Shown: positions 1-16,239 of the stretch, piece by piece
Layout of the letters: the number at the start of each line of letters is the position of its first letter
Position numbering within the stretch: the first letter of the stretch is position 1
Source of the DNA: Spirochaetaceae bacterium
GTDB taxonomy: Bacteria; Spirochaetota; Spirochaetia; SZUA-6; Bin103
Direction: 5' to 3'
Assembly (NCBI GenBank): GCA_026710565.1
Contig: JAPOQV010000211.1
Location: forward strand, 1-17,118
DNA length: 17,118 nucleotides
The notes under the pieces: generated by a model
Databases searched by the model: none
Told to the model about the DNA's origin: nothing
The model's input: only the letters and a program-made list of their open reading frames with translations
Made by a program: the position numbers and the translations under genes

Positions 1-936
1 CAGATCGGCGACCGGCCGCTGATCACCACCGGCTACTTCGACTCCCAGAACCTCGCCTTCTGGGACGCCACCCGCGGCGAGTACCGGGCCTACGTGCGCG
101 ACTTCCACGGCAGCCGCGACGCGGCCGCCCGCGAGGTCGCCCTGCGCGATGTCCGCACCTGCACCTCGCCCGACTTCCTGGCCTGGACCGAGCCGCAGTG
201 GCTGTCATACGAGCCGGAACGGTTCGCGGAGATCTACACCAACCAGATCAACCCCTACTACCGCGCACCGCACCTGTTCGTCGGCCTGCCGATGCGCTAC
301 GTCACCGGCCACGGCTACGTGACGGAGCTCAACGAGCGCATCTCCCGGTCACAGGAGCGGTTCGGCACCAGCTATACCGACACGGCGCTGATGACCAGCC
401 GTGACGGCCGCACCTTCGACCTCTGGGGCGAGGCGTTCATCCGCCCCGGTCCGGTGCAGAAGGGACGCTGGCACTACGGAGCCAACAGCGCGGCCCTGGG
501 CATCCTGGAGACGGCTGATGAGGCCGGCGCCCCGGAGCTGTCGCTCTACGTCAAGGAGGGCGGCTGGGACGTGCCGTCGCAGCTCCGTCGCTACGCCCTG
601 CGGGTCGACGGCTTCGCATCGATGCGCGCGGGAGCGGCCGGCGGCGAGGTGCTGACCAGGCCGTTGATCTTCGACGGCGACCGGCTGGCGCTGAACGTCT
701 CCACCTCGGCGCTGGGATGGCTGCGCGTGGAGATCCGGGACCGGGAGGGACGCCCGATCGACGGGTTCGCGGAGGATGACTGCGTCGAGGTGTTCGGCGA
801 CGACATCGAGCATGGAGTGCGCTGGCAGGGCGCCGCGGACCTCGGCCGGTTGGCCGGCACGCCCGTGCGACTGCGCATCACCATGCGCGACGCCGACCTG
901 TACTCGCTGCGCTTCTGTGACGGAGGAACGAGATGA
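1..936 (+). CDS. Beta-propeller glycosidase-like protein, 5'-truncated
   Basis: The reading frame is open from base 1, so the start lies outside the window; 311 residues are visible. I recognise the general type, widespread in environmental bacteria with large carbohydrate repertoires: blade-like motifs such as DSQNLAFWD, YRAYVRDF, CTSPDFLAWTEP and MTSRDGRTFDLWGEAFIRPG resemble the five-bladed propeller of GH32/GH43/GH130-like enzymes. The last ~80 residues form a separate beta-rich domain (LNVSTS, RVEIRDREGRPIDGF, VRLRITMRDADLYSLRF) that recurs at the end of the next gene. Activity and substrate cannot be read from the sequence, and catalytic acids cannot be assigned without a structure. The stop overlaps the next start (ATGA), so the two genes are almost certainly one operon. 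A role in saccharide processing is inference. Confidence 0.72.
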   Translation, partial: QIGDRPLITTGYFDSQNLAFWDATRGEYRAYVRDFHGSRDAAAREVALRDVRTCTSPDFLAWTEPQWLSYEPERFAEIYTNQINPYYRAPHLFVGLPMRYVTGHGYVTELNERISRSQERFGTSYTDTALMTSRDGRTFDLWGEAFIRPGPVQKGRWHYGANSAALGILETADEAGAPELSLYVKEGGWDVPSQLRRYALRVDGFASMRAGAAGGEVLTRPLIFDGDRLALNVSTSALGWLRVEIRDREGRPIDGFAEDDCVEVFGDDIEHGVRWQGAADLGRLAGTPVRLRITMRDADLYSLRFCDGGTR

Positions 937-2525
937 CCCGGATCGAGCCCGGAGGGAAGGCGGTGCTGTTCGCGTTCGACGACCAGAGCATCCCGTGGCG
1001 CTATCGCGTGCGGCTGGAGATGCATCCGCCCGAGAAGTACGACGGCAACCCCGTCATCGCGCGCGGCCCGATGGGCGCGGTCGACGAGCGGCGCGCGCAG
1101 AACAGCCCGGTCACTCACGACGGCGAGCGCTTCCGGATGTGGTACATCGCCCGCGACGACGGCACCGGCTCGACCTTGCCCGGTGAGCGCGAGCGCTACG
1201 AAACATCGCGAGGCGGCCGGGACGGCATCAGCGAGATCGGCACGACGAGCGACATCGTCCATTCCTACGACACCGGCCGCATCTGCTCTGCCGAGAGCGA
1301 CGACGGGTACCACTGGCGCAAGCCGGACCTGGGGATCGTGGAATACCGCGGCAGCACCCACAACAACATCTGCGACATCGAGCCCGGCACCGGGTCCATG
1401 GACGTGCTGTTCCAGCCCGACGCGCCGCCGGAGCGGCGCTACCTGATGGTCATCGAGTTCACCGCCTGGCGGCACCTCAAGAAGCCGCCGCTGGAGATGC
1501 CCTCGATCACCCGCTTCGCCGCCAGCCCGGACGGCTACCGCTGGACCATGCTGCAGGAGGAGCCGGGCGTCGTTGGCCAACACCACGAGGTGTTCTGCCT
1601 GTACCGGTACCGGGATCGCTACCACATCGCCGGTCACCAGGCGTCACCCCTGCTGTACCTGCCCCTGCAGCGACACCCAGCCCTCCCCTACTGCGGCCCG
1701 CGCACCATGGTGGTCTGGCGATCGCCGGACGTGGGCCGCTGGCCGCTGGAGACCTGCCACGCCTTCTTCAAGCCGATGCAGTCCTCCTCGCCCTACCGAA
1801 CCGGCTGGGACCGCGAGGAGGTGCACATGGGCGCCTACGTGACGCCCTACCCCAACGTCTGCCTGGGCGTCTGCGGGCAATGGCACCACCCGATCACCGA
1901 CGCGCCGCCCGAGCGGCCGGACTACCGGGGCGAGGAGGTCGCCGTCGACCTGGGGTTCATCCTCAGCAACGACGGCGTGCACTTCCGCGAGCCGGCTCCC
2001 GGCTTCACCTTCATCGGCCGCGACCAGGAGCTGTCGTGGGACCGGGACTGGCGGGACAACGCGACCCGTGACCGGATGCTGATGGAGCAAGGGCCGCTGC
2101 TCAACATCGGCGACCGGACCGTCCTCTACTACACGGCGTGCACGCCGCACGGCAACCTGATGGGATCGATGAGCAACATCGGCATGGCCACGCTTCCGCG
2201 AGAGCGGTTCGGCAGCCTGACGCCGGTGGACGGCGCCGCCTGCGGCCAGGCGGTCACCGACACGATCCAGGCAGGGTTGGCGACCCAGCTCTACGCGAAC
2301 GTGGAGATTCCGCCGGGCGGCCGGCTGCAAGCCGCGCTCACGGACCCGGAAGGACTGGCGGAGCTGCCCGGTTACGAGCTCGACGCCAGCCGCGCGCTGA
2401 CTGCATCGGGCTTCGACCAGCGCCTCACGTGGCGCGGCCGGCCGGAGCTGCCTGCCGGCGCCTTCCGCATCCGCGTGCGCCTCACCGCAGGGTCCCGGCT
2501 CTACGCTCTCTACGTGGGAGGATAG
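933..2525 (+). CDS. Beta-propeller glycosidase-like protein, full length
   Basis: A 530-residue protein with no obvious signal peptide, so probably cytoplasmic. The ATG overlaps the upstream stop (ATGA) and sits behind a clear GGAGGA ribosome binding site at 922-927. Propeller-type strands include FRMWYIAR, CSAESDDGYHWRKPDLGIVEY and FAASPDGYRWT, the same 'S.DG..W..P' blade signature seen in GH32/GH43-like folds. The final ~80 residues (from about LYANVEIPPGGRL to RLYALYVGG) match the C-terminal domain of the upstream gene, so the two are paralogues with the same architecture. Function as a glycoside hydrolase or phosphorylase is inferred from fold-like motifs only. The 3' end overlaps the convergent antitoxin gene by 16 bases. 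Confidence 0.75.
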   Translation: MTRIEPGGKAVLFAFDDQSIPWRYRVRLEMHPPEKYDGNPVIARGPMGAVDERRAQNSPVTHDGERFRMWYIARDDGTGSTLPGERERYETSRGGRDGISEIGTTSDIVHSYDTGRICSAESDDGYHWRKPDLGIVEYRGSTHNNICDIEPGTGSMDVLFQPDAPPERRYLMVIEFTAWRHLKKPPLEMPSITRFAASPDGYRWTMLQEEPGVVGQHHEVFCLYRYRDRYHIAGHQASPLLYLPLQRHPALPYCGPRTMVVWRSPDVGRWPLETCHAFFKPMQSSSPYRTGWDREEVHMGAYVTPYPNVCLGVCGQWHHPITDAPPERPDYRGEEVAVDLGFILSNDGVHFREPAPGFTFIGRDQELSWDRDWRDNATRDRMLMEQGPLLNIGDRTVLYYTACTPHGNLMGSMSNIGMATLPRERFGSLTPVDGAACGQAVTDTIQAGLATQLYANVEIPPGGRLQAALTDPEGLAELPGYELDASRALTASGFDQRLTWRGRPELPAGAFRIRVRLTAGSRLYALYVGG

Positions 2526-2746
2526 CCGGCACGCTCCAACCGCTCCCCGACCCACACCTTGATGATCGACTGCCGCGGCACGCCGAGTCGCCGAGCTTCC
2601 TTGTCCAACGACGCAATCATCCACACTGGAAAGTCCACGTTCACACGCTTCACGCTCTGACCCGGCCTTCTGGCGCCCGACATTTCCAGATACTGCGTGA
2701 TGTCCTCGCCGGCATCGAACCGTCGGTCGAACTCCTCAGCTTTCAT
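2510..2746 (-). CDS. BrnA/CopG-family antitoxin
   Basis: A 78-residue protein. An N-terminal acidic segment (FDRRFDAGEDITQYLEMS) is followed by a ribbon-helix-helix-like segment (KRVNVDFPVWMIASLDKEARRLGVPRQSIIKVWVGERLE is the region, about residues 33-70). RHH antitoxins of this group bind DNA as dimers through the strand and neutralise the partner toxin with the other terminus. The ATG at 2746 overlaps the end of the upstream toxin gene by 11 bases, giving the toxin-first order usual for BrnT modules. The 3' end overlaps the convergent propeller gene by 16 bases. Autoregulation is expected from the family; a candidate inverted repeat lies just upstream of the toxin. Confidence 0.82.
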   Translation of the reverse strand: MKAEEFDRRFDAGEDITQYLEMSGARRPGQSVKRVNVDFPVWMIASLDKEARRLGVPRQSIIKVWVGERLERAGYPPT

Positions 2747-2996
2747 AGATCGCTATCTCCTCCTTGCTTGATCTGCGCACGGATATGATCCTCCGCCTCT
2801 GATCTCGATAGGTGATCACGGCCGACCAGTGCTTGCCGCCGGACTTGGCAACCACCAGAAGTCGCGGCTCATCTACGGTGCGGGCCGGGATCTCGACCAA
2901 GTCCGTATCCGCCCACAGGGTCTGCGCCCGTTCGAAGTCGATGCCATGCTTCTGCTGATTGGCACGGCTCTCGGCCTCATCGTATTCAAAGCTCAC
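2736..2996 (-). CDS. brnT: BrnT-family ribonuclease toxin
   Basis: An 86-residue protein fitting the BrnT family in length and pattern: FEYDEAESRANQQKHGIDF at the start (the family's F-WD--KA--N--KHG--F block), then a central beta region, and a closing YRDQRRRIISVRRSSKEEIAIYES (R-IIS-R-A---E---Y block). BrnT toxins are small RelE-like-fold ribonucleases that inhibit translation. The only reasonable start is a GTG at 2996, because an in-frame stop lies just upstream at 3009-3011; no strong ribosome binding site precedes it. It is translationally linked to the antitoxin by an 11-base overlap. Toxicity is inferred from family membership. Confidence 0.85.
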   Translation of the reverse strand: MSFEYDEAESRANQQKHGIDFERAQTLWADTDLVEIPARTVDEPRLLVVAKSGGKHWSAVITYRDQRRRIISVRRSSKEEIAIYES

Positions 2997-3022
2997 AAGG
3001 TATAGAAATCATCCCATGTGAG
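2992..3022. promoter_or_regulatory. Inverted repeat upstream of brnT, candidate operator
   Basis: CTCACA (2992-2997) and TGTGAG (3017-3022) are perfect 6-base inverted arms separated by 19 bases, spanning the GTG start of brnT and the region where its promoter should be. BrnA-type antitoxins repress their own operon, so this is a plausible operator. Short arms like this can arise by chance. Confidence 0.25.
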
Positions 3023-3094
3023 ACGCCTGCAGGGGTAACCAGCCTAAGGACCCGCCATAGTCCTCTCCACCGGCTCCCACAGGCAGGCGCGGGC

Positions 3095-4135
3095 TCACCA
3101 GCTCGACACGATGCGGTCGCGGTTGGGGATCGGGGGGCGCACGGCGGTGCCGCGGAGGTGCGACTCGTAGAGGCCGAAGCCGATCTCGGTGGAGAGCATG
3201 GCGATGCGCAGGTTGCTGACCGCCGGCTGACCGGTGCGGATGGCCTGCACCAGGTCGCGGATCTTGCGCTCCGTGCCGCACCAGTGCTCGACCGGCTCCA
3301 GCGGAACCGGGTCGAAGCCGGAGCGCGTGTCCTTCCGGCGCACTTCCATCTCTTCGCCGTCGTTGCGGATGCGGATGAGCCCGCCTTCGCAGACGATCTC
3401 GAACTCCAGGTTGCCGGTGCCCACCACGGCGATGTCCGGGCCGTCGGCGAACTCGATCAGCGCGCTGCGGATCGACGGGTCCTTGACGAAGTGCATGTGC
3501 GAGGTGTCCCCCGGCGCCGGACTGAGCGTCTCCAGCGTGCCGCGGATCGAGGTGACCTCCTGCGGATCGCCGGCCAGGTACAGCACCGTGTCCAGCCCGT
3601 GGCCGCCCACGCTGTTGCCCCAGAAGCCGATCACGCGCTGCACGCGTCCGAGCTCGCCGCCCGCCGCGATGGCCCGCGCCTGCTGGTAGACCGTCCAGTT
3701 GCGCCGCGGCGGACCGAACTCCAGCATCACGCCGGCGCGCTCGAACGCTTCCCGGATGGCGTCGGCCTCGCGCAGGGTGCAGCACAGCGGCTTCTCCGCG
3801 AACATGCCCTTCACGCCGTGCTCGGCGCCGTAGATCATCGCCTCCGCGTGCTGCTCGGGCCGCGTGCAGATGCTCAGGATCTCCGGCCGCTCCGCGTCGA
3901 TCAGCTCCCGGAAATCCGTGTACCCCCGCGGCACGTTCCAGCGCCGCCGAAACTCCGCGAGCTTCGCCTCGTCCACGTCACAGGCGGCGACCATCTCGGT
4001 TACGTCGGTGGCCTGCGCGTAGCCGCCGGCGTGCGCGAGCGGCGGCACCACCCCGCCGCGCCACTGCGGCGTCCGTTCGTCGTCGATGGTGCCGGCGATC
4101 CGACCGCAGCCGATCATGCCCACCTTCAGTCTCAT
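3095..4135 (-). CDS. Gfo/Idh/MocA family NAD(P)-dependent oxidoreductase
   Basis: A 346-residue protein from the ATG at 4135. That start is preferred over a longer reading frame because it follows a strong GAGGAGGAA ribosome binding site, begins directly with the Rossmann strand, and overlaps the upstream cysN stop (ATGA). Residues 5-14 (VGMIGCGRIAG region) are the GxGxxA dinucleotide-binding motif; AEKPL at 113-117 is the family's EKP motif with the catalytic lysine. A C-terminal beta domain follows. The family oxidises or reduces sugars, inositols and related polyols. The substrate is unknown. The coupling to a sulfate-activation operon is unusual for this family and is the main clue to function. 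Confidence 0.9.
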   Translation of the reverse strand: MRLKVGMIGCGRIAGTIDDERTPQWRGGVVPPLAHAGGYAQATDVTEMVAACDVDEAKLAEFRRRWNVPRGYTDFRELIDAERPEILSICTRPEQHAEAMIYGAEHGVKGMFAEKPLCCTLREADAIREAFERAGVMLEFGPPRRNWTVYQQARAIAAGGELGRVQRVIGFWGNSVGGHGLDTVLYLAGDPQEVTSIRGTLETLSPAPGDTSHMHFVKDPSIRSALIEFADGPDIAVVGTGNLEFEIVCEGGLIRIRNDGEEMEVRRKDTRSGFDPVPLEPVEHWCGTERKIRDLVQAIRTGQPAVSNLRIAMLSTEIGFGLYESHLRGTAVRPPIPNRDRIVSSW

Positions 4136-6008
4136 GCGCGTTCCTCCTCGCCCTCGCTTTGGTCTTCCGCGCGCAGCCTGCGGCACACCGCCGCCGCCGC
4201 TTCCTCCGGCGACAGCTCCGGCGGCAGGACCAGGTCGGCCTGCACGCCGTGCAGGTCCTCTCCCGCCCGCACGATCAACATGTCGTTGGGTTGATTGAGG
4301 ATGCGCAGCGTCTCCGCCTCGTAGACGTCGAGGTCGGCGACCGTCGTGATCACGATCTGCCCGGAGTCGGTCAGGAAGTGGGCGATCTCGCCAAGATGGC
4401 GGATGTTCTCATCACGCGTCTCGCCGCTGGACGACTGCTGCTCCCGCTCGACGTCGGCGTCCAGCCCGCCGGCGAGGTTGGAGAGCCCGAAGTAGTAGAC
4501 GTTGCTGCCGCCGTGAAAGAGCTCCCGCTCCACGTCGCGGGCAACCCGGACCAGCAGCGGATGCAGCGAGCCGGTGAGCACCAACAACCGCGGCTCCTGG
4601 CCGTAGCGATCGGCGCGCTCGCCGCCTGAGACGGCGCCGTTCACCCATGCGTAGTCCCGGCGCCGGACGTGCTCGCGCAGCGACTCGCTCAGGTCGGACA
4701 GGTACTCGGTGATGATGCCGCCGCCGGCGATCTCGTACTGGTCGACCAGCACGAAGCGGCCGGTGGCGACCAGATCGGCGTCCACGCCCAGGTCGAACGC
4801 GATCGGCTTGTGGGTCTCCAGCACGCACTCGGCCACCTCATGCCGCCCGACGTGCTGCTTGGCGGCGCTGCGCTCCAGGGTGTCGGCGTCGAGGACCTGC
4901 ACGATCTCCTTCACGTGCACGGTCACCCTCGTGCTGGCCAGCTTCAGCAGGTAGCGCCGGCCGCGCACCAGCGGGTTGCGGTCCAGCCAGAACAGGTTGG
5001 CGCGGAAGGTGGTGCCCACCCGCGGCGGGGCCTCGCCTTCCCGGTACATCACCTCGCCCGGCCGCACGTACAGCTCCTCGGTCAGGGTGATGCCGGTGGC
5101 GGAGCCGGCCGCCGCCGCGCGCGTCCGGGGGAGGTTGAAGCCCTCGATGCTGCGCACCCGAGACCGCTTGCGCGACGGCAGGAACTCCACCGTGTCGCCG
5201 ACGGCCACCGTCCCGCTGGTGATGGTGCCGGCGATGATGCGCGCGTCGTCCCCCCGCACCGGGAACTTGTAGACGTCCTGCACGGGCAGCCGCAGCGCGT
5301 GCTCGGTCTCCGGGCCGGCCGAGTCCAGGGCGTCGATCCGCTCCAGCAACGGCGCCCCGTCGTACCAGCGGGTTCGGGGCGAGGGGGCGACGAGATTGTC
5401 TCCATGCCGCCCGCTCACCGGCACGAACCCGAGCGGCGTGGCCTGGATGTCGGCGAGGAATGCCGCGTACTCCTCGTGTATGGCTTCGAAGACCGCCTGG
5501 TCGTAGCCCACCAGGTCCATCTTGTTGACCACCACCAGGATCTGCCGGATACCCAGCATCGCGGTCATGAAGCCGTGGCGGCGGGAGTTCTCGCGCACCC
5601 CTTCGCGGGCGTCGATCACCAGGATCGCCGCCTCGGCGCGGGCGGCGCCGGAGATCATGTTCTTCAGGAACTCCACGTGCCCGGGCGCGTCGATGATGAT
5701 GTAGCGGCGCCGCTCGGAGCGGAAGAACACCCGCGCGGCGTCGATGGTGATGCCCTGGGCCTGCTCGTCGCGGAGCGCGTCGATCAGGAACGCGTACTCG
5801 AACGGCTTGCCCGAGCGCTCGCAGTTGCGCCGGACCTGCTCGATCCTGCCGTCCGGGAGGGAGCCCGTGTCATGCAGCAGGCGTCCGACCACCGTGCTCT
5901 TGCCGTGGTCGACGTGGCCGACGATGACGATGTTCATCGCCGCCAGCTCGGCCGGTGGCGCGGTGTCCCCGGCGATGGCGGTCGCGGGCTCGGAAGCGGG
6001 ACCGGCCA

Positions 6009-6009
<1 letters not shown>
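4132..6009 (-). CDS. cysN: Sulfate adenylyltransferase GTPase subunit fused to a degenerate APS kinase domain
   Basis: A 625-residue protein. The GTPase subunit couples GTP hydrolysis to APS formation by CysD. G1 is GHVDHGKS (31-38), G3 DAPGH (107-111), G4 NKMD (162-165), followed by the EF-Tu-like beta-barrel domains to about residue 440. Residues ~471-611 align with APS kinase (CysC): RDENIRHLGEIAHFLTDSG (532-550) is the kinase's ENIRR-GEVA---DAG block and ADLVLPP its C-terminal strand. However, the P-loop position reads TGSLHPLL (479-486) instead of GLSGSGKST, DGDN is replaced by FGLSN, and the lid segment is missing. Kinase activity is therefore very unlikely. The ATG at 6009 shares a base with the cysD stop (TGATG) and has GAGGGA about 10 bases upstream; a GTG one codon earlier is the alternative. 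Adjacent cysD and cysH support the role. Confidence 0.92.
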
Positions 6010-6890
<881 letters not shown>

Positions 6891-6901
6891 CGGGGCGGCG
6901 G

Positions 6902-7621
6902 TCACGAGGCGCCCGCCGACACGTGCAGCCCGCACTCCTTGACGCCGTCCTGCTCCCACCACCAGCGCCCGGCGCGCGGATCCTCGCCCGGCTCGACGGC
7001 GCGCGTGCACGGCGCGCAGCCGATGCTCAGGAAGCCGCGGTCGTGCAGGACGTTGTAGGGCACGTCGTGGGCGCGCAGGTAGTCCCACACCTGGTCTTCC
7101 GTCCAGTCGGCCAGCGGATTGGCCTTGAGCGCGCCGTGCGCGGAGTCCCATTCCACGAACGGGGTGCCGGCGCGATCGGGGCTCTGCGCGCGGCGCAGCC
7201 CGGTGATCCACGCCGCGGCCCCGCTGAGCGCGCGGCGCAGCGGCTCGACCTTGCGGACCCCGCAGCAGCGGTGGCGATGCTCCACGCTCTCGTAGAAGAG
7301 GTTGGGGCCGGCCTCGCCCACCATCTCCTGCACCGCTCCGGCCGACGGAAACAGCACCTCGTAGTGCATGCGGTAGCGGCTCATCATGCGCGCCATCAGG
7401 TCGTAGGTCTCCTGGTGCAGGCGGCCGGTGTCCAGCACGAAGATCGATGCGTGCGGGTCGATGCCGAGCAGCATGTGGCTCAGCACCTGATCCTCCGCGC
7501 CCAGTGAGGACGCCAGCTTCACCGCGCGGCCGTGGCGCTCGGCCAGCGCGCGCAGCAACGCCTGTGCGCCGCCGGCGGCGACGGCGTTCAGCCGCCCGAT
7601 CTCGGTGCTGTTCACCTCCAT
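6902..7621 (-). CDS. cysH: Iron-sulfur APS reductase (thioredoxin-dependent)
   Basis: A 239-residue protein. It contains the PP-loop-like SLGAEDQVL (39-47) and the four cysteines that distinguish APS reductases from cluster-free PAPS reductases: [16 protein letters not shown] (C119, C120) and [23 protein letters not shown] (C202, C205), which together bind a [4Fe-4S] cluster. The C-terminal KECGLH (C230) carries the catalytic cysteine that forms the thiosulfonate intermediate. The enzyme would reduce APS to sulfite and AMP with thioredoxin. The ATG at 7621 has AGAGGA about 8 bases upstream. It lies 13 bases after the dehydrogenase gene and directly before cysD. The residues argue strongly for APS rather than PAPS as substrate. 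Confidence 0.95.
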
Positions 7622-7634
7622 CCGTCGTTCCTCT

Positions 7635-8639
7635 TTATCGGCTCCAATCGATCGTCACGCCCAGCGTATCCGCATCCTGCTGCAGCACTCGGTAGGCCGC
7701 CGGGGCATCCGCGGGCGCGAAGCGATGGGTGACCAGCTCGTCCACCTTCACCACACCCTGCTCGATCAGGGCGAGCGTCCGCTCCATCCGGTCGCGCCGC
7801 TGGCCGTTCGGAAAGTGGGTGGTGGTCTCCCCCGCCCGCAGCCAGTGGATGTCCACCTCGCAGGCGCCCGGCGAATAATACCCCAGCACGACCAGGTGGC
7901 CGTCGCGTACCAGCAACTCCGCCGCCGCGCGGATGAGATCGGTCTTGCCGGTGGTTTCGGCCGCGATCCGCAGGCCCTCCGGGACGCGGCTCCGGACCGC
8001 CTCGCCCAGATCCTCGGCATGGGTGTCGATCACCTCGTCGGCGCTGTGCTCGGCAGCGATCTCCAGCCGCCGGCGGCGGTGCCCGGCCAGCAGCACGCGC
8101 GCGCCCCGGTGGCGCAGCACCTGCGCCGCCCACTGCCCGACCAGGCCGTCGCCGATGATCAGCGCCGCGTCGCCGGCGGTGACCGGCGGGCGCACGCCGC
8201 CGTTGTAGCCCACCTGCGCCAGCAGCAGGGCCGATGCGCTGCGCGTGCCGACCCCTGCGGGCACGGGAATCACGTCGGCCGCCGCCGCGACGTGCCAGGC
8301 GCAGTGCCCGGCCCACCAACCGCCCTCCCAACCCTCTGGCTGCTTGCAGCGGGCGCTGAACACCCGGTCCCCGACGGCGAACCCGGTGACCTCATCGCCC
8401 ACCGCGCGCACGCGCCCGGCCGCCTGGTAGCCGGGTGTGAACGGGAAGCGGACCGTGCCGGTGCCCAGCCGTATCGTCCCGTGCAGGCAGTGCAACTCGG
8501 TGCCGGCGCTGACCGTCGTGTGCTCCACCTCGACCAGCACGTCTCCCGGGTCAAGCGGAGACAGCGGCACCTCGCGCAATTCCACCTCGTTAGCGGCGGG
8601 AAAGACGACTGCCGCGGTCGATGCGGGATGCGGGCGCAT
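7635..8639 (-). CDS. MDR-family (zinc-type alcohol dehydrogenase-like) oxidoreductase
   Basis: A 334-residue protein with an N-terminal GroES-like domain (~20-120) and a Rossmann domain with GDGLVGQWAAQVL (163-175). It lacks the classic GHE zinc motif: the equivalent site reads PFTPGYQAAGRV (66-77), and the catalytic-cysteine region reads SAGTELHCLHG. It belongs to the subgroup with a STGTE/SAGTE motif, and zinc binding is doubtful. Substrate unknown. It ends 13 bases before cysH, so it very likely shares that transcript. The ATG at 8639 has no clear ribosome binding site, and a possible -10 box lies only about 10 bases upstream. Confidence 0.85.
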   Translation of the reverse strand: MRPHPASTAAVVFPAANEVELREVPLSPLDPGDVLVEVEHTTVSAGTELHCLHGTIRLGTGTVRFPFTPGYQAAGRVRAVGDEVTGFAVGDRVFSARCKQPEGWEGGWWAGHCAWHVAAAADVIPVPAGVGTRSASALLLAQVGYNGGVRPPVTAGDAALIIGDGLVGQWAAQVLRHRGARVLLAGHRRRRLEIAAEHSADEVIDTHAEDLGEAVRSRVPEGLRIAAETTGKTDLIRAAAELLVRDGHLVVLGYYSPGACEVDIHWLRAGETTTHFPNGQRRDRMERTLALIEQGVVKVDELVTHRFAPADAPAAYRVLQQDADTLGVTIDWSR

Positions 8640-8648
8640 ATCCGTGAC

Positions 8649-8654
8649 TGTATA
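8649..8654 (-). promoter_or_regulatory. Possible -10 box for a near-leaderless MDR-cysHDN transcript
   Basis: Read on the minus strand, this is TATACA, near the sigma-70 consensus, within a relatively AT-rich patch. A start about 7 bases downstream would fall only 2-3 bases before the ATG at 8639, which would explain the missing ribosome binding site. No good -35 box is seen at 16-18 bases (TTCGAC is the best). Weak support. Confidence 0.25.
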
Positions 8655-8684
8655 AGGGAACAGACAGCCGGTCGAACCGGAGCG

Positions 8685-9422
8685 TCAGGCGCTCCCGGCC
8701 GGAGCGTGCTCGTAGAGCGAGACGTGGTTGGTACTGGACGAGGTGAACCGGGAGCCTGACCAGCCGCCCCAGCGCTCGCGCAGGCGGAGGCCGGCCAGTC
8801 GCGCCATCAGGTCCAGCTCCGAGGGCCAGGCGTAGCGGAGCTGCGCCGGGAACAGCCGGGTCCCCGCCGCGTCGATCACGAGATGCTGGCAGGTCACCCG
8901 CTGGCCGGCGGCGTCGTGGCGGGACAGGTCGAGCTGGACCGCGTCGGACTCCAGGTGCGAAATGCCCACGCTCTGGCCGTTCGTGAAGCGCGTCGGGTCG
9001 GGTACGAACGCCTCGATCAGAAAGACGCCGCCCTCGCCGAGGTGCTCGGCGACGCGCGCGTAGCACTGCACCTGCTGCTCCTGGCTGGTGAGCATGAAGA
9101 AGGTGTTGAACACCACGAAGATCAACTCGAACATGCCGTCGACGCGGAAATCCGCGAAGTCGCCCACGGTCACCGGGATGGCGTCGCCGCCCGGCTTGTC
9201 GCGCAGCTTCGCCACCATCGCTTCAGACGATTCGATGCCGTGCACCTCGACGCCCCGCGCGGCCAAGGGCAGGGCTACCCGGCCGGTGCCGATGCCCAGC
9301 TCCAGCGCGCGGCCGCCGGCGGCCAGCCGCTCCAGCGCCTCCACGGGGACGGCGCCGGTCACCATCCGGTCGTAGTTGTCCGCGATGCGGTCGCCGTAGG
9401 TGGCCGGGGTGTAGTCCTTCAT
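8685..9422 (-). CDS. Class I SAM-dependent methyltransferase
   Basis: A 245-residue protein. Motif I is ALELGIGTGRVALPLA (39-54), the SAM-binding glycine loop; the acidic residue after beta-2 is E in VHGIESSEAM (60-69). VGDFADF and FELIFVVFNTFFML match the post-I and motif II regions, and GGVFLIEAFVPDP the motif III strand. The ATG at 9422 is chosen because AGGAAGG precedes it closely; a GTG one codon upstream is the alternative. Substrate unknown. It lies 45 bases before the MDR gene on the same strand and may head the operon, but a separate promoter for the downstream genes is possible. Confidence 0.88.
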   Translation of the reverse strand: MKDYTPATYGDRIADNYDRMVTGAVPVEALERLAAGGRALELGIGTGRVALPLAARGVEVHGIESSEAMVAKLRDKPGGDAIPVTVGDFADFRVDGMFELIFVVFNTFFMLTSQEQQVQCYARVAEHLGEGGVFLIEAFVPDPTRFTNGQSVGISHLESDAVQLDLSRHDAAGQRVTCQHLVIDAAGTRLFPAQLRYAWPSELDLMARLAGLRLRERWGGWSGSRFTSSSTNHVSLYEHAPAGSA

Positions 9423-9452
9423 CACCTTCCTATGGGACCTTCCGCTGGTCGA

Positions 9453-9539
9453 TCAGTCCAGCACGCCGCCACAGTGCTCCTCAATGTACTCACGGAAGGA
9501 CCGGGTGAGCTCGTCGGCCTCGGCGCCGGGGGTCCCGCG
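9453..9539 (-). pseudogene. Possible 3' remnant of an unidentified gene
   Basis: Between the Uma2 gene and the methyltransferase, one minus-strand frame encodes about 27 residues without a start, bounded upstream by a TAG and ending in TGA at 9453. The peptide (GAEADELTRSFREYIEEH, then CGGVLD) looks like the amphipathic helical C-terminus of a real protein rather than random GC-rich coding. This could be the tail of a deleted gene. Too short to identify, and chance cannot be excluded. Confidence 0.2.
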
Positions 9540-9565
9540 CTATCCGGTTGCCACAGACGGCCCGG

Positions 9566-10114
9566 CTACAGCAGTCGGCGTACGGAGACGGCGACATCCG
9601 GGAACGCCAGCGGGTGAATCACGCCGGCATTCAGGGTCCGTTCGGTTCGGTAGGTCCCAGCGCTCGGGTCGCGAAACACCAGCACTGTCATGTCCTGGAG
9701 GTTCACCACCCAGTACTCCGGAATGCCCGCCTCGGAATAAATCCGCTTCTTGGCTTCGAGGTCCTTCCTCAGGCTCGTCTGCGCGTACTCGACGAGCCAG
9801 AACACGTTGTCCGGATAGGGGTGATGGTCGCGGTACTCGCGGCCCAATCGCTCGACGATCGCCAAGTCAGGTTCCGGCTCGGAGTCGACGTCGGCCAGCG
9901 TGATCGGCTTTGCCTGGCGCACCTTCGCACGCTCCCCCAACAACCGCAGCAGGTATTCTCCCGCCTCGTCGCTACCGTATGCGTGAGGCTCGCCTTCGGG
10001 AGCCATGACTACGATCTCGCCATCGAGCAACTCCACCGGCTGGTCATCGAGGATTCCTTCATCGCCGAGCCGGTGGTACTCGGCCACCGTCCAGGTCTTC
10101 GTCATCAAGGCCAC
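9566..10114 (-). CDS. Uma2-family putative PD-(D/E)xK endonuclease
   Basis: A 182-residue protein of the Uma2 (DUF820) family, which has a PD-(D/E)xK nuclease fold and largely unknown roles. Visible blocks: LLDGEIVVMAPEGEPHAYG near the N-terminus, SEPEPDLAIVERL (79-90, with the motif acid D83), FWLVEYAQTSLRKDLEAKK (105-123, E109 and K122/K123), and IPEYWVVNLQ (131-140). A GTG start at 10114 is chosen because GAGGAG lies 5-6 bases before it; an ATG three codons later has worse spacing. It follows the VapBC-like pair on the same strand after 94 bases that show no other gene. Confidence 0.87.
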   Translation of the reverse strand: MALMTKTWTVAEYHRLGDEGILDDQPVELLDGEIVVMAPEGEPHAYGSDEAGEYLLRLLGERAKVRQAKPITLADVDSEPEPDLAIVERLGREYRDHHPYPDNVFWLVEYAQTSLRKDLEAKKRIYSEAGIPEYWVVNLQDMTVLVFRDPSAGTYRTERTLNAGVIHPLAFPDVAVSVRRLL

Positions 10115-10208
10115 GGAATCTCCTCACGGTCCATCATAGCGGAAAGAGCGGCTACGGAACTGCTTCGAGGAGTCGGTGCCGGGTTCCGTGGCTCACGGGT
10201 TCCGCGTG

Positions 10209-10646
10209 TCAGGTTGCGCGGATCCAATGTGCCCACGCCACGCCATGTTCGACGAGCGCGTTCCTGAGACGCTCGTCGGCGGTCCAGAATTGCGCCTTGA
10301 GTTCTTCGGCGAGCGTCACGTAGTGACCGTCATATGCCTTGCTGTGTCCGAGCCGGCCCGCCCAGAGGAGAGCCCCGCGGTTGAGTGCAGGCGAGGGGTC
10401 GATCAACTCGAGGTCGAGAGCCTCGAGCAAATCGAGGGCCTCCTCCAACTGAGACTGACTGATGAGCTTGCGCCACAACGCCCGGCGCAGGCCGCTGGTC
10501 ACTTCATAGCTCCACAACCGCGGCGCCGCCACGACCGCCCGTTCGTCGCGCCATTCGTCGACTCGGCGATCTGCGTGCGAGCTGTACGGGAGCGGCAGGG
10601 CCAGGGCGAGGGTCCCGTTCGCGTCCACCACTACCGTCATCGTCAC
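10209..10646 (-). CDS. vapC: PIN-domain ribonuclease toxin (VapC-like)
   Basis: A 145-residue PIN-domain protein. The four acidic positions of the metal-dependent RNase site are present: D8 (VVVDANG), E48 (LWSYEVTSGLRRAL), D106 (KAYDGHYVTLAEEL) and D124 (FWTADERL). VapC toxins cleave tRNA or rRNA to stop translation; the target cannot be predicted. The GTG at 10646 overlaps the antitoxin stop as GTGA, and an ATG two codons in (10640) is an alternative. Location after a ribbon-helix-helix gene with a 4-base overlap is the standard VapBC layout. Confidence 0.9.
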   Translation of the reverse strand: MTMTVVVDANGTLALALPLPYSSHADRRVDEWRDERAVVAAPRLWSYEVTSGLRRALWRKLISQSQLEEALDLLEALDLELIDPSPALNRGALLWAGRLGHSKAYDGHYVTLAEELKAQFWTADERLRNALVEHGVAWAHWIRAT

Positions 10647-10921
10647 GGGCGCTCCTGCTCGCGTTCCTCACGTGCTTCGGCGACCAGGTCGACGGTGATC
10701 CTGCCGCTGGTGTCCCGAATGGCTTCTCTCAGAGCCCGCAGATGACCCAGAGCCGGCTTCCGCGCCGACCAGGCCGCACTCCGATGGGCGACCAGCGCTT
10801 CGTCGATGAGCGTGCGGGCGACCTCGGATATGCTCTTTCCCTCTTGCCGGGACATCAGCACCAGCCTGCCGTGCTGCTCGGGACGAAGCAGTATCTGGGC
10901 CCGATACATTCGTTCACTCAT
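10643..10921 (-). CDS. vapB: Ribbon-helix-helix antitoxin (VapB-like)
   Basis: A 92-residue protein with an N-terminal RHH domain (MYRAQILLRPEQHGRL then ISEVARTLIDEAL, about residues 5-43) for DNA binding, and a charged C-terminal tail (EAREEREQERP) that would bind the PIN toxin. The ATG at 10921 has no ribosome binding site; the promoter described at 10928-10955 would place the transcript start at the A of the ATG. The stop overlaps the toxin start. RHH antitoxins repress their own promoter, and a matching inverted repeat overlaps that promoter. Confidence 0.85.
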   Translation of the reverse strand: MSERMYRAQILLRPEQHGRLVLMSRQEGKSISEVARTLIDEALVAHRSAAWSARKPALGHLRALREAIRDTSGRITVDLVAEAREEREQERP

Positions 10922-10927
10922 GCCAAG

Positions 10928-10955
10928 ATCCTACATCTACACAACCATGTGTCAA
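10928..10955 (-). promoter_or_regulatory. Sigma-70-like promoter with embedded operator for vapBC
   Basis: On the minus strand, a perfect -35 TTGACA (10955-10950) is separated by 16 bases from a -10-like TAGGAT (10933-10928). The predicted start is about 7 bases downstream, at the A of the vapB ATG. The arms ACACA and TGTGT (10939-10943 and 10948-10952), with a 4-base centre, overlap the -35 box and spacer, where a bound RHH repressor would block RNA polymerase. Confidence 0.55.
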
Positions 10956-10973
10956 CGGACGAAGACGTCTCGC

Positions 10974-10987
10974 ACACGCCGGCGTGT
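10974..10987. promoter_or_regulatory. Perfect 14-base palindrome, candidate operator
   Basis: ACACGCCGGCGTGT is a perfect 14-base palindrome centred on CpG, in the divergent intergenic region between vapB and the sugar importer. Its size and CpG centre resemble operators of LacI/GalR-type sugar regulators, but no regulator gene is in the window, so the factor is unknown. Confidence 0.35.
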
Positions 10988-11050
10988 CCATGGTCCACGT
11001 CTCCGCTCCGTTCTCCCATCCGGCGACCAATCGGCTGTCCAGGATACCGC

Positions 11051-11086
11051 CGCGCGTCCCCGCCGGTTGACCGGCGGGCGCGCGCG
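11051..11086 (+). promoter_or_regulatory. GC-rich hairpin in the leader of the sugar-transporter operon
   Basis: A perfect 8-base inverted repeat CCCGCCGG / CCGGCGGG flanks a TTGA loop (11067-11070). After one mismatch and one G-T wobble the stem extends by CGCGCG / CGCGCG, about 16 positions in all. It ends 29 bases before the permease start. There is no T-tract, so it is not a classic terminator. The loop forms part of a possible -35 (TTGACC, 11067-11072) with a weak TAGCAC 17 bases later. It could be an operator or an mRNA leader structure. Confidence 0.4.
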
Positions 11087-11115
11087 TAGTAGCACATCCG
11101 GACGGTAGGGGAACC

Positions 11116-12099
11116 ATGAGCGACCAGGGTCAGGTGGCGAGTTCGGCGCCGGCCACGCCCTTGGACGCCCCTGCGCGCGCCGTCTCCGGCCCCAAGCGCG
11201 AGCTGTGGGCGCGCGTACGCCGCCACTGGATGCTGTACGTGATGATCGCGCCGGCGATCCTGGGCTTCCTGGTCTTCAAGTACATCCCGGCGATCGGCGC
11301 CGTGACCATCCCGTTCACCCGCTACAGCATCGTCGACGGCTTCTTCGGGTCGGAGTGGGTCGGGCTGAAGTGGTTCATCTCCTTTCTCAACGGAGCGTTC
11401 TTCCCGCGCCTGCTCAGGAATACCTTCCTGCTCGGATTCCTGGGGATGGTGATCGGCTTTCCCATGCCGATCCTGCTGGCGCTGTCGCTGAACGAGATCA
11501 GGAGCGAGCCGTTCAAGCGGTTCGCGCAGACCATCACCTACCTTCCCCACTTCATCTCCGTCGTGGTGGTGGTCGGCCTGATGTACTCCTGGTTCGCCTA
11601 CGACGGGTACGTCAACAACTTCCTCGGCCTCTTCAACCTCGATCCCATCGACTTCCAGGGCGATCCGCGCTGGTTCCGGCCGCTGTACATCGGCTCCGGC
11701 ATCTGGCAGGGGATCGGCTGGGGGGCGATCCTCTACCTGGCCGCGCTCGGCGGGGTCAACCCGGAGCTGTACGAGTCCGCCTACCTTGACGGCGCCAATC
11801 GCGTCCGCCGCGCCTGGCACGTGACGCTGCCGGGCATCGCGCCGACGATCACCATCCTGTTGATCCTGGGCATGCAGAACATCATCGAGGTCAGCTTCGA
11901 CAAGGTGTTCCTGATGCAGAACCCGGCGATCATGAGCACGTCGGACGTATTCGCGACCTACATCTACCGCCGCGGCATCATCGGCCTGGACTACTCGTTC
12001 GCGGCCGCGGTCGGCCTGCTCAACTCCGTGGTCGGGCTGCTGCTGGTGATGGGCGCGAACTACCTGAGCAGGCTGGTCAACGAGCACAGCCTGTGGTGA
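11116..12099 (+). CDS. Sugar ABC transporter permease, LplB type
   Basis: A 327-residue polytopic inner-membrane protein. After a ~35-residue hydrophilic N-terminus come about six membrane segments, beginning with WMLYVMIAPAILGFLVF. The EAA loop that docks the ATPase is ESAYLDGANRVRRAWHVTLP (220-239). The opening HWMLYVMIAPAILGF and overall layout match the LplB/YtcP-type permeases of carbohydrate importers. The ATG is preceded by AGGGGA. It is followed 28 bases later by the second permease and then the binding protein, forming one operon that ends at the terminator at 14665. No ATPase gene is present, so the transporter probably uses a shared MsmK-like ATPase encoded elsewhere. Confidence 0.93.
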   Translation: MSDQGQVASSAPATPLDAPARAVSGPKRELWARVRRHWMLYVMIAPAILGFLVFKYIPAIGAVTIPFTRYSIVDGFFGSEWVGLKWFISFLNGAFFPRLLRNTFLLGFLGMVIGFPMPILLALSLNEIRSEPFKRFAQTITYLPHFISVVVVVGLMYSWFAYDGYVNNFLGLFNLDPIDFQGDPRWFRPLYIGSGIWQGIGWGAILYLAALGGVNPELYESAYLDGANRVRRAWHVTLPGIAPTITILLILGMQNIIEVSFDKVFLMQNPAIMSTSDVFATYIYRRGIIGLDYSFAAAVGLLNSVVGLLLVMGANYLSRLVNEHSLW

Positions 12100-12127
12100 G
12101 GGCGGCGGTCATGAAGGCGAGAGCCCG

Positions 12128-13045
12128 GTGATCAGGTACAAGACGACGCCCGGCTCGCTCGCGTTCGACGTGGCGAACCACGCGGCGATCATCCTGCTGA
12201 TGATCTCCATGGTGTACCCGTTCGTGTTCGTCATCTCGGTGTCGGTGAGCGACTTCGAGGCGATCACCTTCAACGAGGTCAAGCTGCTGCCGGTCGGCCC
12301 GCTGCAGGCCAAGGCGTACAACGTCCTGCTCGGCGCCACCAACATCCTGAGGAGCTATCTGAACAGCATCTACTACGCGCTCGGCACGGCGACGATCACC
12401 CTGGGCGTCACCAGCCTGGCGGCCTACGTGCTGGAGCAGCGCACCCTGCCGTTCCGCAAGGCGCTGATCCTGTTCGTGGTGCTGACCATGTTCCTGCCCG
12501 GGTTCTTCATCCCCACGTTCCTGCTGGTCAACGAGCTCGGACTGGTGGACACGCGGCTGATCGTCATGCTGCTGCCCAGCTTCGGCGCCTGGTACATCCT
12601 GGTGATGCGCGCCAACATCCGCACCGTCGTCACGCGCGAGTTGCAGGAGGCCGCGTTGATCGACGGCGCCAACCACCTGCAGATCTACGTCTCGCTCGTG
12701 CTGCCGCTCATCAAGCCGATCCTGGCCACCATCGGCCTGTTCACGGTCGTGGGAAGCTGGAACAACTTCTTCCTGCCGCTGATCTACCTGCACGACCGCG
12801 ACAAGCACCCGCTCACCCTCATCCTCCAGCGCATCCTGATCGAAGGCGAGATCGGCAAGTACAGCGGGGGCGGCATGGCGCAACTCTGGGAGGACCAGGG
12901 CGTACCGGGCTACGTCGGCGTCGGCTTCTTCAAGTCGTTCAAGTTCGCGGCCGTGGTGGTCACGGTGTGGCCGATCATCGTCGCCTACCCGTTCCTGCAG
13001 AGGTACTTCGTGAAGGGCATCCTGGTCGGGTCGGTTAAGGACTGA
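12128..13045 (+). CDS. Sugar ABC transporter permease, LplC/YtcP type
   Basis: A 305-residue inner-membrane protein with about six membrane segments. The N-terminus (GSLAFDVANHAAIILLMISM, then VYPFVFVISVSVSDF) and C-terminus (VAYPFLQRYFVKGILVGSVK) are typical of the LplC/YtcP family. The EAA loop is EAALIDGANHLQIYVSLVLP (174-193). The start is a GTG at 12128; a six-codon reading frame from an ATG at 12111 ends across it as GTGA, which may help re-initiation. An insert of about 20 residues (KYSGGGMAQLWEDQGVPGY) precedes the last membrane segment. It pairs with the first permease to form the channel. Confidence 0.93.
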   Translation: MIRYKTTPGSLAFDVANHAAIILLMISMVYPFVFVISVSVSDFEAITFNEVKLLPVGPLQAKAYNVLLGATNILRSYLNSIYYALGTATITLGVTSLAAYVLEQRTLPFRKALILFVVLTMFLPGFFIPTFLLVNELGLVDTRLIVMLLPSFGAWYILVMRANIRTVVTRELQEAALIDGANHLQIYVSLVLPLIKPILATIGLFTVVGSWNNFFLPLIYLHDRDKHPLTLILQRILIEGEIGKYSGGGMAQLWEDQGVPGYVGVGFFKSFKFAAVVVTVWPIIVAYPFLQRYFVKGILVGSVKD

Positions 13046-13066
13046 CCGTTGACACCGCAATCGATA

Positions 13067-13106
13067 ACGCCGAGTCTCGGCGTACCAGACCTGCGCGGAA
13101 GCGCAG
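13067..13106 (+). promoter_or_regulatory. Tandem hairpins before the binding-protein gene
   Basis: Two perfect small stem-loops lie between the second permease and the binding protein. The first is ACGCCGA / TCGGCGT (13067-13073 and 13077-13083) with a 3-base loop. The second is CTGCGC / GCGCAG (13091-13096 and 13101-13106) with a GGAA (GNRA) loop, ending directly before the AAGGAGGA ribosome binding site. Intercistronic hairpins often protect a binding-protein mRNA segment from decay so that it is made in excess over the permeases. Confidence 0.45.
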
Positions 13107-13119
13107 AAGGAGGATCGTG

Positions 13120-14628
13120 ATGAAAAGAACCATGCTGATCGCCGCCGCGGCGATCCTGGCCCTCGCCGCGACGCCGGTGTTCGGGTCCGGTGAAGAGGAA
13201 GGCATGGCGAGCGGCCCGCCGACCATGCAGATCTACGCGAACTACTGGGACCGCAATCCCAACTGGTCGCCGGAGACCCTGGTCGTTGCGAAGTTCGCCG
13301 AGATCGCCGGCGCCGAGATAGAGCTGGTCACCGGTGACGCGCAGAAGCTCAAGACCCTGGTGGCGAGCGGCGACCTGCCCGACACCATGTGGGGCGGTTT
13401 CACTCGGCTCGAAGCTATGGACTTCGGCACCAAGGGCGCGCTGTTCCCGATCGACACGCTGTTCGACATGATGCCCAACCTGAGCACGTGGCGGGAGAAG
13501 TACCCGGAGTACGACTCCGCCATGACCGCCCCCGACGGGCACCAGTACGCGACCACGTCGGTGTACAACTACACGCAGCTCCGCCGCGCGCCGTCGATCT
13601 CGCCGGCCGTGCACGAGTTGGGCGTCGACCCGCGGGCGGACATCCAGGCCATGCAGGACCTGCTGGAGGTGCTGGGCCAGTCAAGGGCCTGGTGGCCGGA
13701 GAACCATCCCGGGGTCGCCCGCCGCGGGCTTCGCGACGGCTACCACGTGATGTTCGGCACCAACCATTCCGTCTACCTCAATCCGGAGACCGACCAGTGG
13801 ACCTACGGCGAGATGGAGGACAACTACCGCGGCATGATCGAGATCCTGCGGCAGGCCTGGGCCGACGGACTCATGCATCCCGACTTCATGTCCATGGGCG
13901 AGGATCCGTGGCGGGAGATCATGTCGCAGGGCAAGGCCTACTTCACGACCGGCCCGTACAGCCAGATCTCATGGCAGGGCACCGACCGCGCGGACCCCAA
14001 CACCTGGTGGATCCCGATCCTGGCGCCGGAGTTCAACGGCACGCGCTACTGGTCGACGATCCAGAATCCGCGCGTGCTGGACGCGGCCAGGTGGACGCTG
14101 GGCGCCAACACCGAGGTCGCCGAGAACGCGGTCCAACTGATCGACTGGCTCTACAGCGACGAGGGCGTCTACTACATCTACTTCGGCGAGGTCGGCGTGA
14201 CCAGCGAGCTCGACGACCTGGGCTACGGCTACTACGCGCATTTCCCGGAGGGCCAGCGCACGGAGTGGATGTGGGAGCAGGGCTTCCACTTCTTCCGCTA
14301 CAACGTCGTGCACTCCCTGTGGGAGCTCAACCCGAGCAAGGCAGGCAGCGCGGCGGAGAAGATCTTCACCGACGAGGTGGCCGACTTCTACATCAGCAAC
14401 GACTCGGTGCGCCCGCCGGAGCCGGTGCTCACCTTCACCGAGGACGAGCTCGACCAGATCAAGCAGATCAAGGCCGACGCCGACGCCGCCGCCCTGGAGG
14501 GCGCTGCCACCTTCATCCGCGGCAGCAGGGCGATGAGCGAGTGGGGCGACTTCACGGCTCAGTTGGAGCGCATCGGAGTCAAGCAGCTCGAGGACATCTA
14601 CAACGCCGCCTACGCGCGGCTGAAGTAG
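13120..14628 (+). CDS. Carbohydrate ABC transporter extracellular solute-binding protein
   Basis: A 502-residue exported protein of the LplA/YtcQ type. The ATG at 13120 has an ideal AGGAGG site 6 bases upstream; a GTG one codon earlier is possible. The signal peptide is MKRTMLIAAAAILALAATPVFG (1-22), with likely cleavage before SGEEEG. There is no lipobox cysteine, so it is presumably a free periplasmic protein. Mature blocks include IYANYWDRNPNW, KLKTLVASGDLPDTMWGG and ALFPIDTLFDMMPN. Residues ~150-205 diverge from the usual RxDWLDxLG...DPDGNG segment of the family. Ligand unknown, probably an oligosaccharide. It is the last gene of the transporter operon. Confidence 0.92.
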   Translation: MKRTMLIAAAAILALAATPVFGSGEEEGMASGPPTMQIYANYWDRNPNWSPETLVVAKFAEIAGAEIELVTGDAQKLKTLVASGDLPDTMWGGFTRLEAMDFGTKGALFPIDTLFDMMPNLSTWREKYPEYDSAMTAPDGHQYATTSVYNYTQLRRAPSISPAVHELGVDPRADIQAMQDLLEVLGQSRAWWPENHPGVARRGLRDGYHVMFGTNHSVYLNPETDQWTYGEMEDNYRGMIEILRQAWADGLMHPDFMSMGEDPWREIMSQGKAYFTTGPYSQISWQGTDRADPNTWWIPILAPEFNGTRYWSTIQNPRVLDAARWTLGANTEVAENAVQLIDWLYSDEGVYYIYFGEVGVTSELDDLGYGYYAHFPEGQRTEWMWEQGFHFFRYNVVHSLWELNPSKAGSAAEKIFTDEVADFYISNDSVRPPEPVLTFTEDELDQIKQIKADADAAALEGAATFIRGSRAMSEWGDFTAQLERIGVKQLEDIYNAAYARLK

Positions 14629-14664
14629 ATCCTCCAGCGCGCGACACACGCGTTGGACGTCAAG

Positions 14665-14702
14665 GGCCGTCGGCCGGCAGATGCCGGTCCGGCGGCCTTT
14701 TT
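14665..14702 (+). terminator. Rho-independent terminator of the transporter operon
   Basis: GGCCG (14665-14669) and CGGCCGGCA (14671-14679) pair with TGCCGG (14682-14687), CCG (14689-14691) and CGGCC (14693-14697). There is one G-T wobble, one bulged T and a very short loop; TTTTT follows at 14698-14702. It lies 37 bases after the binding-protein stop. This is a strong intrinsic terminator in a position that makes sense. Confidence 0.88.
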
Positions 14703-14714
14703 CATTGACCTGCC

Positions 14715-16172: not shown

Positions 16173-16239
16173 TCGGCTGGGGCACGCTCGACTCTTCTCC
16201 GGTCCGCGGAACGTGACAGTAGGGTCGTACGTCACGACA

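Follow-up and report, generated by a model that had tools for sequence, protein, structure and literature searches.

Why would the GTPase subunit of an ATP sulfurylase carry an adenosine 5′-phosphosulfate (APS) kinase domain that has lost its active site? This question is raised by a 17,118-nt stretch of DNA from a Spirochaetaceae bacterium (GenBank assembly GCA_026710565.1, contig JAPOQV010000211.1, positions 1 to 17,118), hereafter called the window. A gene on its minus strand, designated cysN*, encodes a CysN GTPase fused to a domain of the APS-kinase fold. Judged from sequence and predicted structure, this C-terminal domain is without any active site that could be recognised as working, yet it is retained, and we infer that it no longer phosphorylates APS. 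We propose, giving the idea close to an even chance, that the pseudo-APS-kinase has been reused to dock the next enzyme that uses APS. The parts of the gene are as follows.

4132..6009, minus strand: cysN*, CysN GTPase fused to a pseudo-APS-kinase domain, 625 aa
4705..5937, minus strand: EF-Tu-like GTPase and two beta-barrel domains, residues 25–435
4135..4692, minus strand: linker helix and pseudo-APS-kinase domain, residues 440–625, assigned by profile, AlphaFold2 (AF2) model and fold search
4546..4572, minus strand: position of the degenerate Walker A loop, residues 480–488, GSLHPLLVR
4471..4491, minus strand: position of the degenerate LDGDN motif, residues 507–513, FGLSNLA
4387..4416, minus strand: kept RDENIRHLGE segment, residues 532–541, equivalent to R82–E91 of E. 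coli CysC
4234..4263, minus strand: site of the lid deletion; residues 583 and 592 align to 133 and 173 of E. coli CysC

The initial annotation had described a CysN whose APS-kinase domain lacks the P-loop, the DGDN motif and the lid, and had called it a pseudokinase. Profile and alignment bore out this description: the domain matched the APS-kinase profile (E 1.4e-26), with GSLHPLLVR and FGLSNLA at the two motif positions. Structure prediction of the region gave the fold of APS kinase in both the AF2 model and the fold search; the pseudokinase architecture is supported. The APS-kinase-fold part makes up the last ~175 residues, and in the predicted model of the whole protein helix 440–454 connects it to the barrel. 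In the window's domain the P-loop lysine, the S/T and both Asp of DGDN are all missing. A local frameshift or assembly error was ruled out because the open reading frame (ORF) is open and relatives in many genomes share the architecture.

The P-loop-less form proved to be widespread. A protein search with the window's CysN* returned 41 relatives, and G....GK[ST] was absent at the corresponding place in all 17 that were aligned with the window. A scan of species genomes found at least 571 confirmed relatives. The best 80 were kept, from 79 genomes, and the domain was present in all 80; being the best-scoring 80 of at least 571, these loci favour kin of the window. Together with the window they make up the 81 loci analysed below. 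Record titles and tree labels place CysN* proteins, mostly from metagenome bins, in well over ten phyla, namely Spirochaetota, Planctomycetota, Bacillota, Gemmatimonadota, Myxococcota, Calditrichota, Omnitrophota, Elusimicrobiota, Verrucomicrobiota, Kiritimatiellota, Chlorobiota, Bacteroidota, Fusobacteriota, Fibrobacterota, Chloroflexota, Actinomycetota and others. One copy (L103) lies on a 1.04 Mb plasmid record of Gemmatirosa kalamazoonensis. Another (P0003), 93% identical over the domain, was deposited as the sponge Geodia barretti and is presumably bacterial symbiont sequence.

We compared 82 CysN* domains with 39 true CysC proteins, using E. coli CysC numbering. The lid region (143–167) contained zero residues in all 82 domains, and the lid residues K145 and F159 were kept in none. 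At the other catalytic positions, S/T42 was kept in 1, K41 in 52, D65 in 2, R68 in 2 and F77 in 0. The helix positions were mostly kept (R82 in 58, E84 in 77, R87 in 77 and R88 in 73). True CysC proteins scored 39/39 at each of S/T42, D65, R68, F77, R82, K145 and F159; only F77, R82, K145 and F159 give an unbiased contrast, since 35 of the 39 had been picked by the P-loop and LDGD..R motif (45 ORFs, 35 of them distinct, plus four references). A full Walker A motif, G....GK[ST], was present in a single domain (L026), which keeps G....GKS and the second Asp of DGDN. This domain is what can be said for an APS kinase still at work with an unusual nucleotide site. We consider that explanation hardly credible, given the universal loss of the lid and the state of the window's own motifs.

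The window's CysN* passed TIGR02034 (349.5 bits; curated cut-off 336.1), and it is an EF-1A-like GTPase with an intact P-loop, the G-HVDHGKS columns being invariant across 77 aligned sequences. GTP-coupled APS synthesis by CysDN itself would be expected to be normal.

We then read the surroundings of the genes. Upstream of cysN*, the window encodes the catalytic sulfurylase subunit and a 4Fe-4S APS reductase.

6009..6890, minus strand: cysD, ATP sulfurylase catalytic subunit (NF003587, 342.5 bits; cut-off 195)
6902..7621, minus strand: cysH, 4Fe-4S APS reductase (TIGR02055, 260 bits; cut-off 235.3; cysteine motif)

The start codon of cysN* shares a TGATG overlap with the cysD stop codon, and cysD starts either at the ATG at 6890 or at a GTG at 6905 that overlaps the cysH stop codon. 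The stop codon of cysN* in turn overlaps the ATG of the next gene (ATGA). That gene encodes a Gfo/Idh/MocA oxidoreductase (3095–4135, minus strand), and the overlap suggests co-translation; no match to the oxidoreductase was present in the fetched stretch of L001, the window's nearest relative.

The neighbours divide most loci into two types. A gene is called near here when the fetched stretch, up to ~6 kb, contains it. Among the 81 loci, 28 had cysH without cysC, 31 had cysC without cysH, one had both and 21 had neither, the last partly because contigs end. The cysC of the 31 loci was intact in 30 and a fragment of 115 aa at a contig end in the other (L031); the locus with both (L058) has a cysH fragment of 101 aa. 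The 4Fe-4S motif was found in 28 of the 29 cysH neighbours, the exception being the L058 fragment, and all ten CysH proteins tested (nine of the 29 neighbours and one from L144) passed TIGR02055. In an added spirochaete sample, 14 domain-bearing genes were near cysH (L140, L141, L143–L146, L150–L152, L154, L156, L158, L160 and L162), four were near cysC (L139, L142, L157 and L161) and one was near neither (L159); G..G.GK[ST]T was absent from the domain in all 19. The link to APS reductase drawn in the initial annotation is thus true of the window and of only 28 of the 60 loci with a readable context, most others lying near a separate CysC. A strict tie between P-loop loss and an APS reductase neighbour was ruled out by the 31 loci of the cysC type.

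Two bins carry both types. G076 contains L077, of the cysC type, and L144, of the cysH type, and G025 contains L026, of the cysH type, and L167, a cysC-cysD-cysN* run; each copy lies near its own partner.

AprBA was considered as the usual partner in the cysC type and was not general. AprA-like proteins were found in 6 of the 32 genomes of this type, the mixed L058 included (G050, G052, G053, G058, G068 and G079; the search covered 50 of the 79 genomes), with 319–376 bits, all below the TIGR02061 cut-off of 641.75. The sole match above the cut-off was in G040, of the cysH type, and the remaining matches reached at most 42 bits. In a Halanaerobium locus (L059:565-2650), apparent AprA-like and ferredoxin-like genes, labelled by eye, precede cysD-cysN*-cysC, and an AprA-like match is present on that contig. 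Near cysD-cysN* in four loci, a DUF2061 membrane protein is fused to an APS-kinase domain (L019:4277-5008, L047:4262-5050, L050:3628-4395 and L077:4125-4907); by pattern, those of L019, L047 and L050 have no G..G.GK[ST] motif.

The genome content bears on a second explanation, also raised in the initial annotation, that the dead domain is a nucleotide sensor, binding APS or 3′-phosphoadenosine 5′-phosphosulfate (PAPS) in the old pocket and feeding back on CysDN as in the fungal enzyme. Of the 79 genomes, 50 had another PF01583 match above 100 bits: all 32 of the cysC type (mixed included), 14 of the remaining 20 and 4 of the 27 of the cysH type (L001, L002, L009 and L026). The other 23 reductase-type genomes had no further PF01583 match above 100 bits; they are mostly bins and may be incomplete, and one (L011) is a 6.5 Mb record titled chromosome. 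PAPS is therefore probably not made in most cysH-type genomes. The L001 lineage may make it, because a CysC domain ends a 1129-aa open frame there. The pocket itself is also altered. According to a report on M. tuberculosis CysC (PMC4373884), APS is contacted by Asp480, Arg483, Phe492, Arg497, Lys562 and Phe576. When these residues were mapped to E. coli numbers by motif, their counterparts were lost in CysN* domains except that of Arg497; D65, R68, F77 and the two lid residues, the lysine and the phenylalanine, were gone in at least 80 of 82. Without most of these side chains, and with PAPS probably lacking in most cysH-type genomes, we judge a PAPS sensor of the fungal kind unlikely.

In favour of docking, residues conserved within each subtype take the place of the catalytic ones. 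The residue set of the cysC type (30 domains, L033 omitted) has K in place of the Walker A S42 in 97%, GIG in place of DGD at 63–65 (97%, 83% and 93%), Y for H69 in 97% and W at 131 in 80%. The set of the cysH type (26 domains, L042 and L060 omitted) has D561, L571, N572 and P574 (window numbers) at 88–96%, shortly before the lid deletion, and the window keeps all four within DLDVYEAETLRILNQPND. The C-terminal tail [DENQ]Y.[LI] ends 23 of 28 cysH-type proteins versus 1 of 31 cysC-type proteins. With the spirochaete sample added and a looser tail pattern, the counts were 35 of 41 and 1 of 27.

These residues also bear on a purely structural role, in which the domain stabilises the CysN barrel or oligomerises CysDN and has neither partner nor ligand. 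APS kinases are in general dimers. The M. tuberculosis CysC is described as one in PMC4373884. Positions common to true CysC (G550, L497 and G480) are also conserved in CysN* domains, and the predicted helix joins the domain to the barrel, as a structural part would have it. Against this, the conserved subtype-specific residues occupy former catalytic positions, and some proteins do without the domain, namely plain CysN and a few of the CysN* relatives. We rate this explanation as improbable as the sensor.

Several observations weigh against the docking proposal. Operon type follows the tree, with only five changes, and the tail trait offers only two phylogenetically independent contrasts on supported branches, with a sign test that was not significant. 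Partner and sequence features may therefore be shared by descent alone, and the tail is not statistically established as a partner code. Individual proteins depart from the pattern: the window and L001 are without the tail that most of their subtype have, L033 combines a cysC-type operon with a cysH-type tail, and L042 and L060 are of the cysH type with a cysC-type tail. The two-copy genomes G076 and G025 are metagenome bins that could be mixed; since most genomes are metagenome-assembled, both two-copy genomes and gene absences may be artefacts. Some relatives have no domain, both beside cysH (L148 and L155) and beside cysC (L163); nor have L147, L153 and L164, which are distant. The profile did not detect the domain in L149, where a remnant is discernible by eye. 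Finally, the ratio of nonsynonymous to synonymous substitution rates (dN/dS) of the domain was 0.31 versus 0.20 for the GTPase part between the window and L001, and 0.65 versus 0.24 between the window and L002.

The last two points are those expected of a decaying relic, kept by chance once PAPS became unnecessary, as are the wholly erased P-loop and the absent tail of the window's clade. Outside this clade, 15 measurable pairs gave a domain dN/dS of 0.020–0.162 (Nei-Gojobori), 0.4 to 2.9 times that of the GTPase part; the pairs were hand-picked (17 tried, two saturated), some share a member, and synonymous sites were near saturation in many. In light of these low values and the higher ones around the window, the family is maintained by purifying selection and the constraint has eased in the window's clade. 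The domain also persists in 30 loci with an intact CysC and no cysH. Decay, offered in the initial annotation as the alternative, fits the weaker constraint in the window's clade and the domain-less spirochaete relatives; as a general account it fails against the domain's presence in all 80 loci and the selection elsewhere, and we consider it a poor prospect, below sensor and structural part. As to the domain-less relatives, L148 and L155 end in LLKKYFPHRF, like the C-terminal VRRHFPHWG of E. coli CysN, and such a short tail may replace the domain in these two proteins.

With these points counted, docking is still the explanation we put forward. The domain would be a protein–protein module within the CysDN ATP sulfurylase complex, recruiting or orienting the next APS user, namely APS reductase in the window's subtype and a separate CysC in the other. 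Because ATP sulfurylase works against a very unfavourable equilibrium, coupling it to an APS consumer helps; docking would help to pull the reaction forward and would dedicate one complex to one branch. A 2013 review states that certain bacterial sulfurylase/APS-kinase fusions are the only cases in which APS channeling has been demonstrated unambiguously (PMC3734648). A bolder version, which we hold to be doubtful, has two dedicated complexes in which the dead domain on CysN is an address label that sets branch choice, one subtype delivering APS to APS reductase for reduction and the second passing it to a separate CysC, for PAPS formation and sulfation. Should the domain indeed serve in docking, it would show how a cell commits scarce APS to reduction or sulfation, and it would add a second, distinct example of an APS kinase that became a pseudoenzyme on an ATP sulfurylase.

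The lineage of the fusion was examined with quick trees, built without bootstrap, in which the long rows L164, EF-1A and L166 were flagged. All 82 domains separated from the 39 true APS kinases at one branch (Shimodaira–Hasegawa-like approximate likelihood ratio test, SH-aLRT, 100). Among 296 Spirochaetota genomes, 73 had a TIGR02034 match at E 1e-60 or better. Two partial matches aside, the scores formed two groups, 464–599 and 308–360 bits, and the lower group, the window's kind, straddles the cut-off of 336.1. In the GTPase tree, the 17 canonical rows grouped together (100), and a second clade (98) held 91 CysN* rows, among which is the window. From this tree 13 of the 81 rows had been removed, in nearly every case as close duplicates (L020 less so), and of the 32 fetched spirochaete canonical CysN it included 13. 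A protein search to widen the canonical set was not useful, as the 120 matches listed were all at least 89% identical to E. coli CysN. The domain-less L147, L153 and long-branched L164 fell outside both clades, and the domain-less L163 lay at the base of the 91-row clade. From the separate clades and these placements, the fusion may have arisen inside the CysN* lineage, independently of NodQ, the placement of long rows being unsure. The independent module suggested in the initial annotation agrees with this separation from canonical CysN and NodQ and with the single branch of the domains. The G1 motif of the CysN* lineage (window residues 31–39) is GHVDHGKST, as in aligned EF-1A chains, unlike the G[SN]VDDGKST of E. 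coli CysN, NodQ and 1zun_B.

Among known systems, the bifunctional CysN/CysC (NodQ; NF004035) likewise joins a CysN GTPase to a C-terminal domain of the APS-kinase fold, and its gene, too, has cysD upstream. The window's CysN* scores 433.4 bits on NF004035, below the cut-off of 715, and its GTPase lies outside the canonical clade. Three NodQ-type domains from plasmid records keep the P-loop, DGDN and lid, whereas CysN* domains do not. In one survey, NodQ was separated from CysN by the presence of PF01583 (PMC1780047), by which CysN* proteins would count as NodQ. Only 6 of the 41 relatives carry a source name, and all six are called bifunctional CysN/CysC or NodQ, so a PAPS-making capacity may be miscredited to such genomes. 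Stand-alone CysC (PF01583) shares with the CysN* domain the fold, the E-x-I-R-R-x-x-E helix and the N-terminal W...R segment; the CysN* domain differs in having no intact P-loop (L026 excepted), DGDN or lid.

Dead APS-kinase domains are known from fungi. The fungal carrier is a single-chain sulfurylase. In the enzymes of known structure (1i2d and 1m8p) the inactive domain is C-terminal and its effector is PAPS; two papers describe such domains in fungal ATP sulfurylases (PMC3734648; also PMC2275785), and the former, the 2013 review, adds that those in other sulfurylases may be remnants adapted to other purposes. The single-chain sulfurylase is of a type unrelated to CysN; both types are described in PMC1780047. 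No report of a P-loop-less CysC domain on a bacterial CysN was found in the open-licence literature, which does not imply its absence from print; as far as that literature tells, the bacterial, CysN-borne form of such a domain appears to be new. Unlike in the fungal system, the dead domain sits on the GTPase subunit CysN, and most reductase-type genomes probably do not make PAPS. In the APS kinase of Entamoeba histolytica, an ATP-sulfurylase-like domain without substrate binding is reported to influence catalysis (PMC13213808). There, too, a partner enzyme of sulfate activation appears to be retained as a domain without substrate binding; that protein combines a live kinase with a sulfurylase-like domain that is not, and CysN* would be the reverse, in bacteria.
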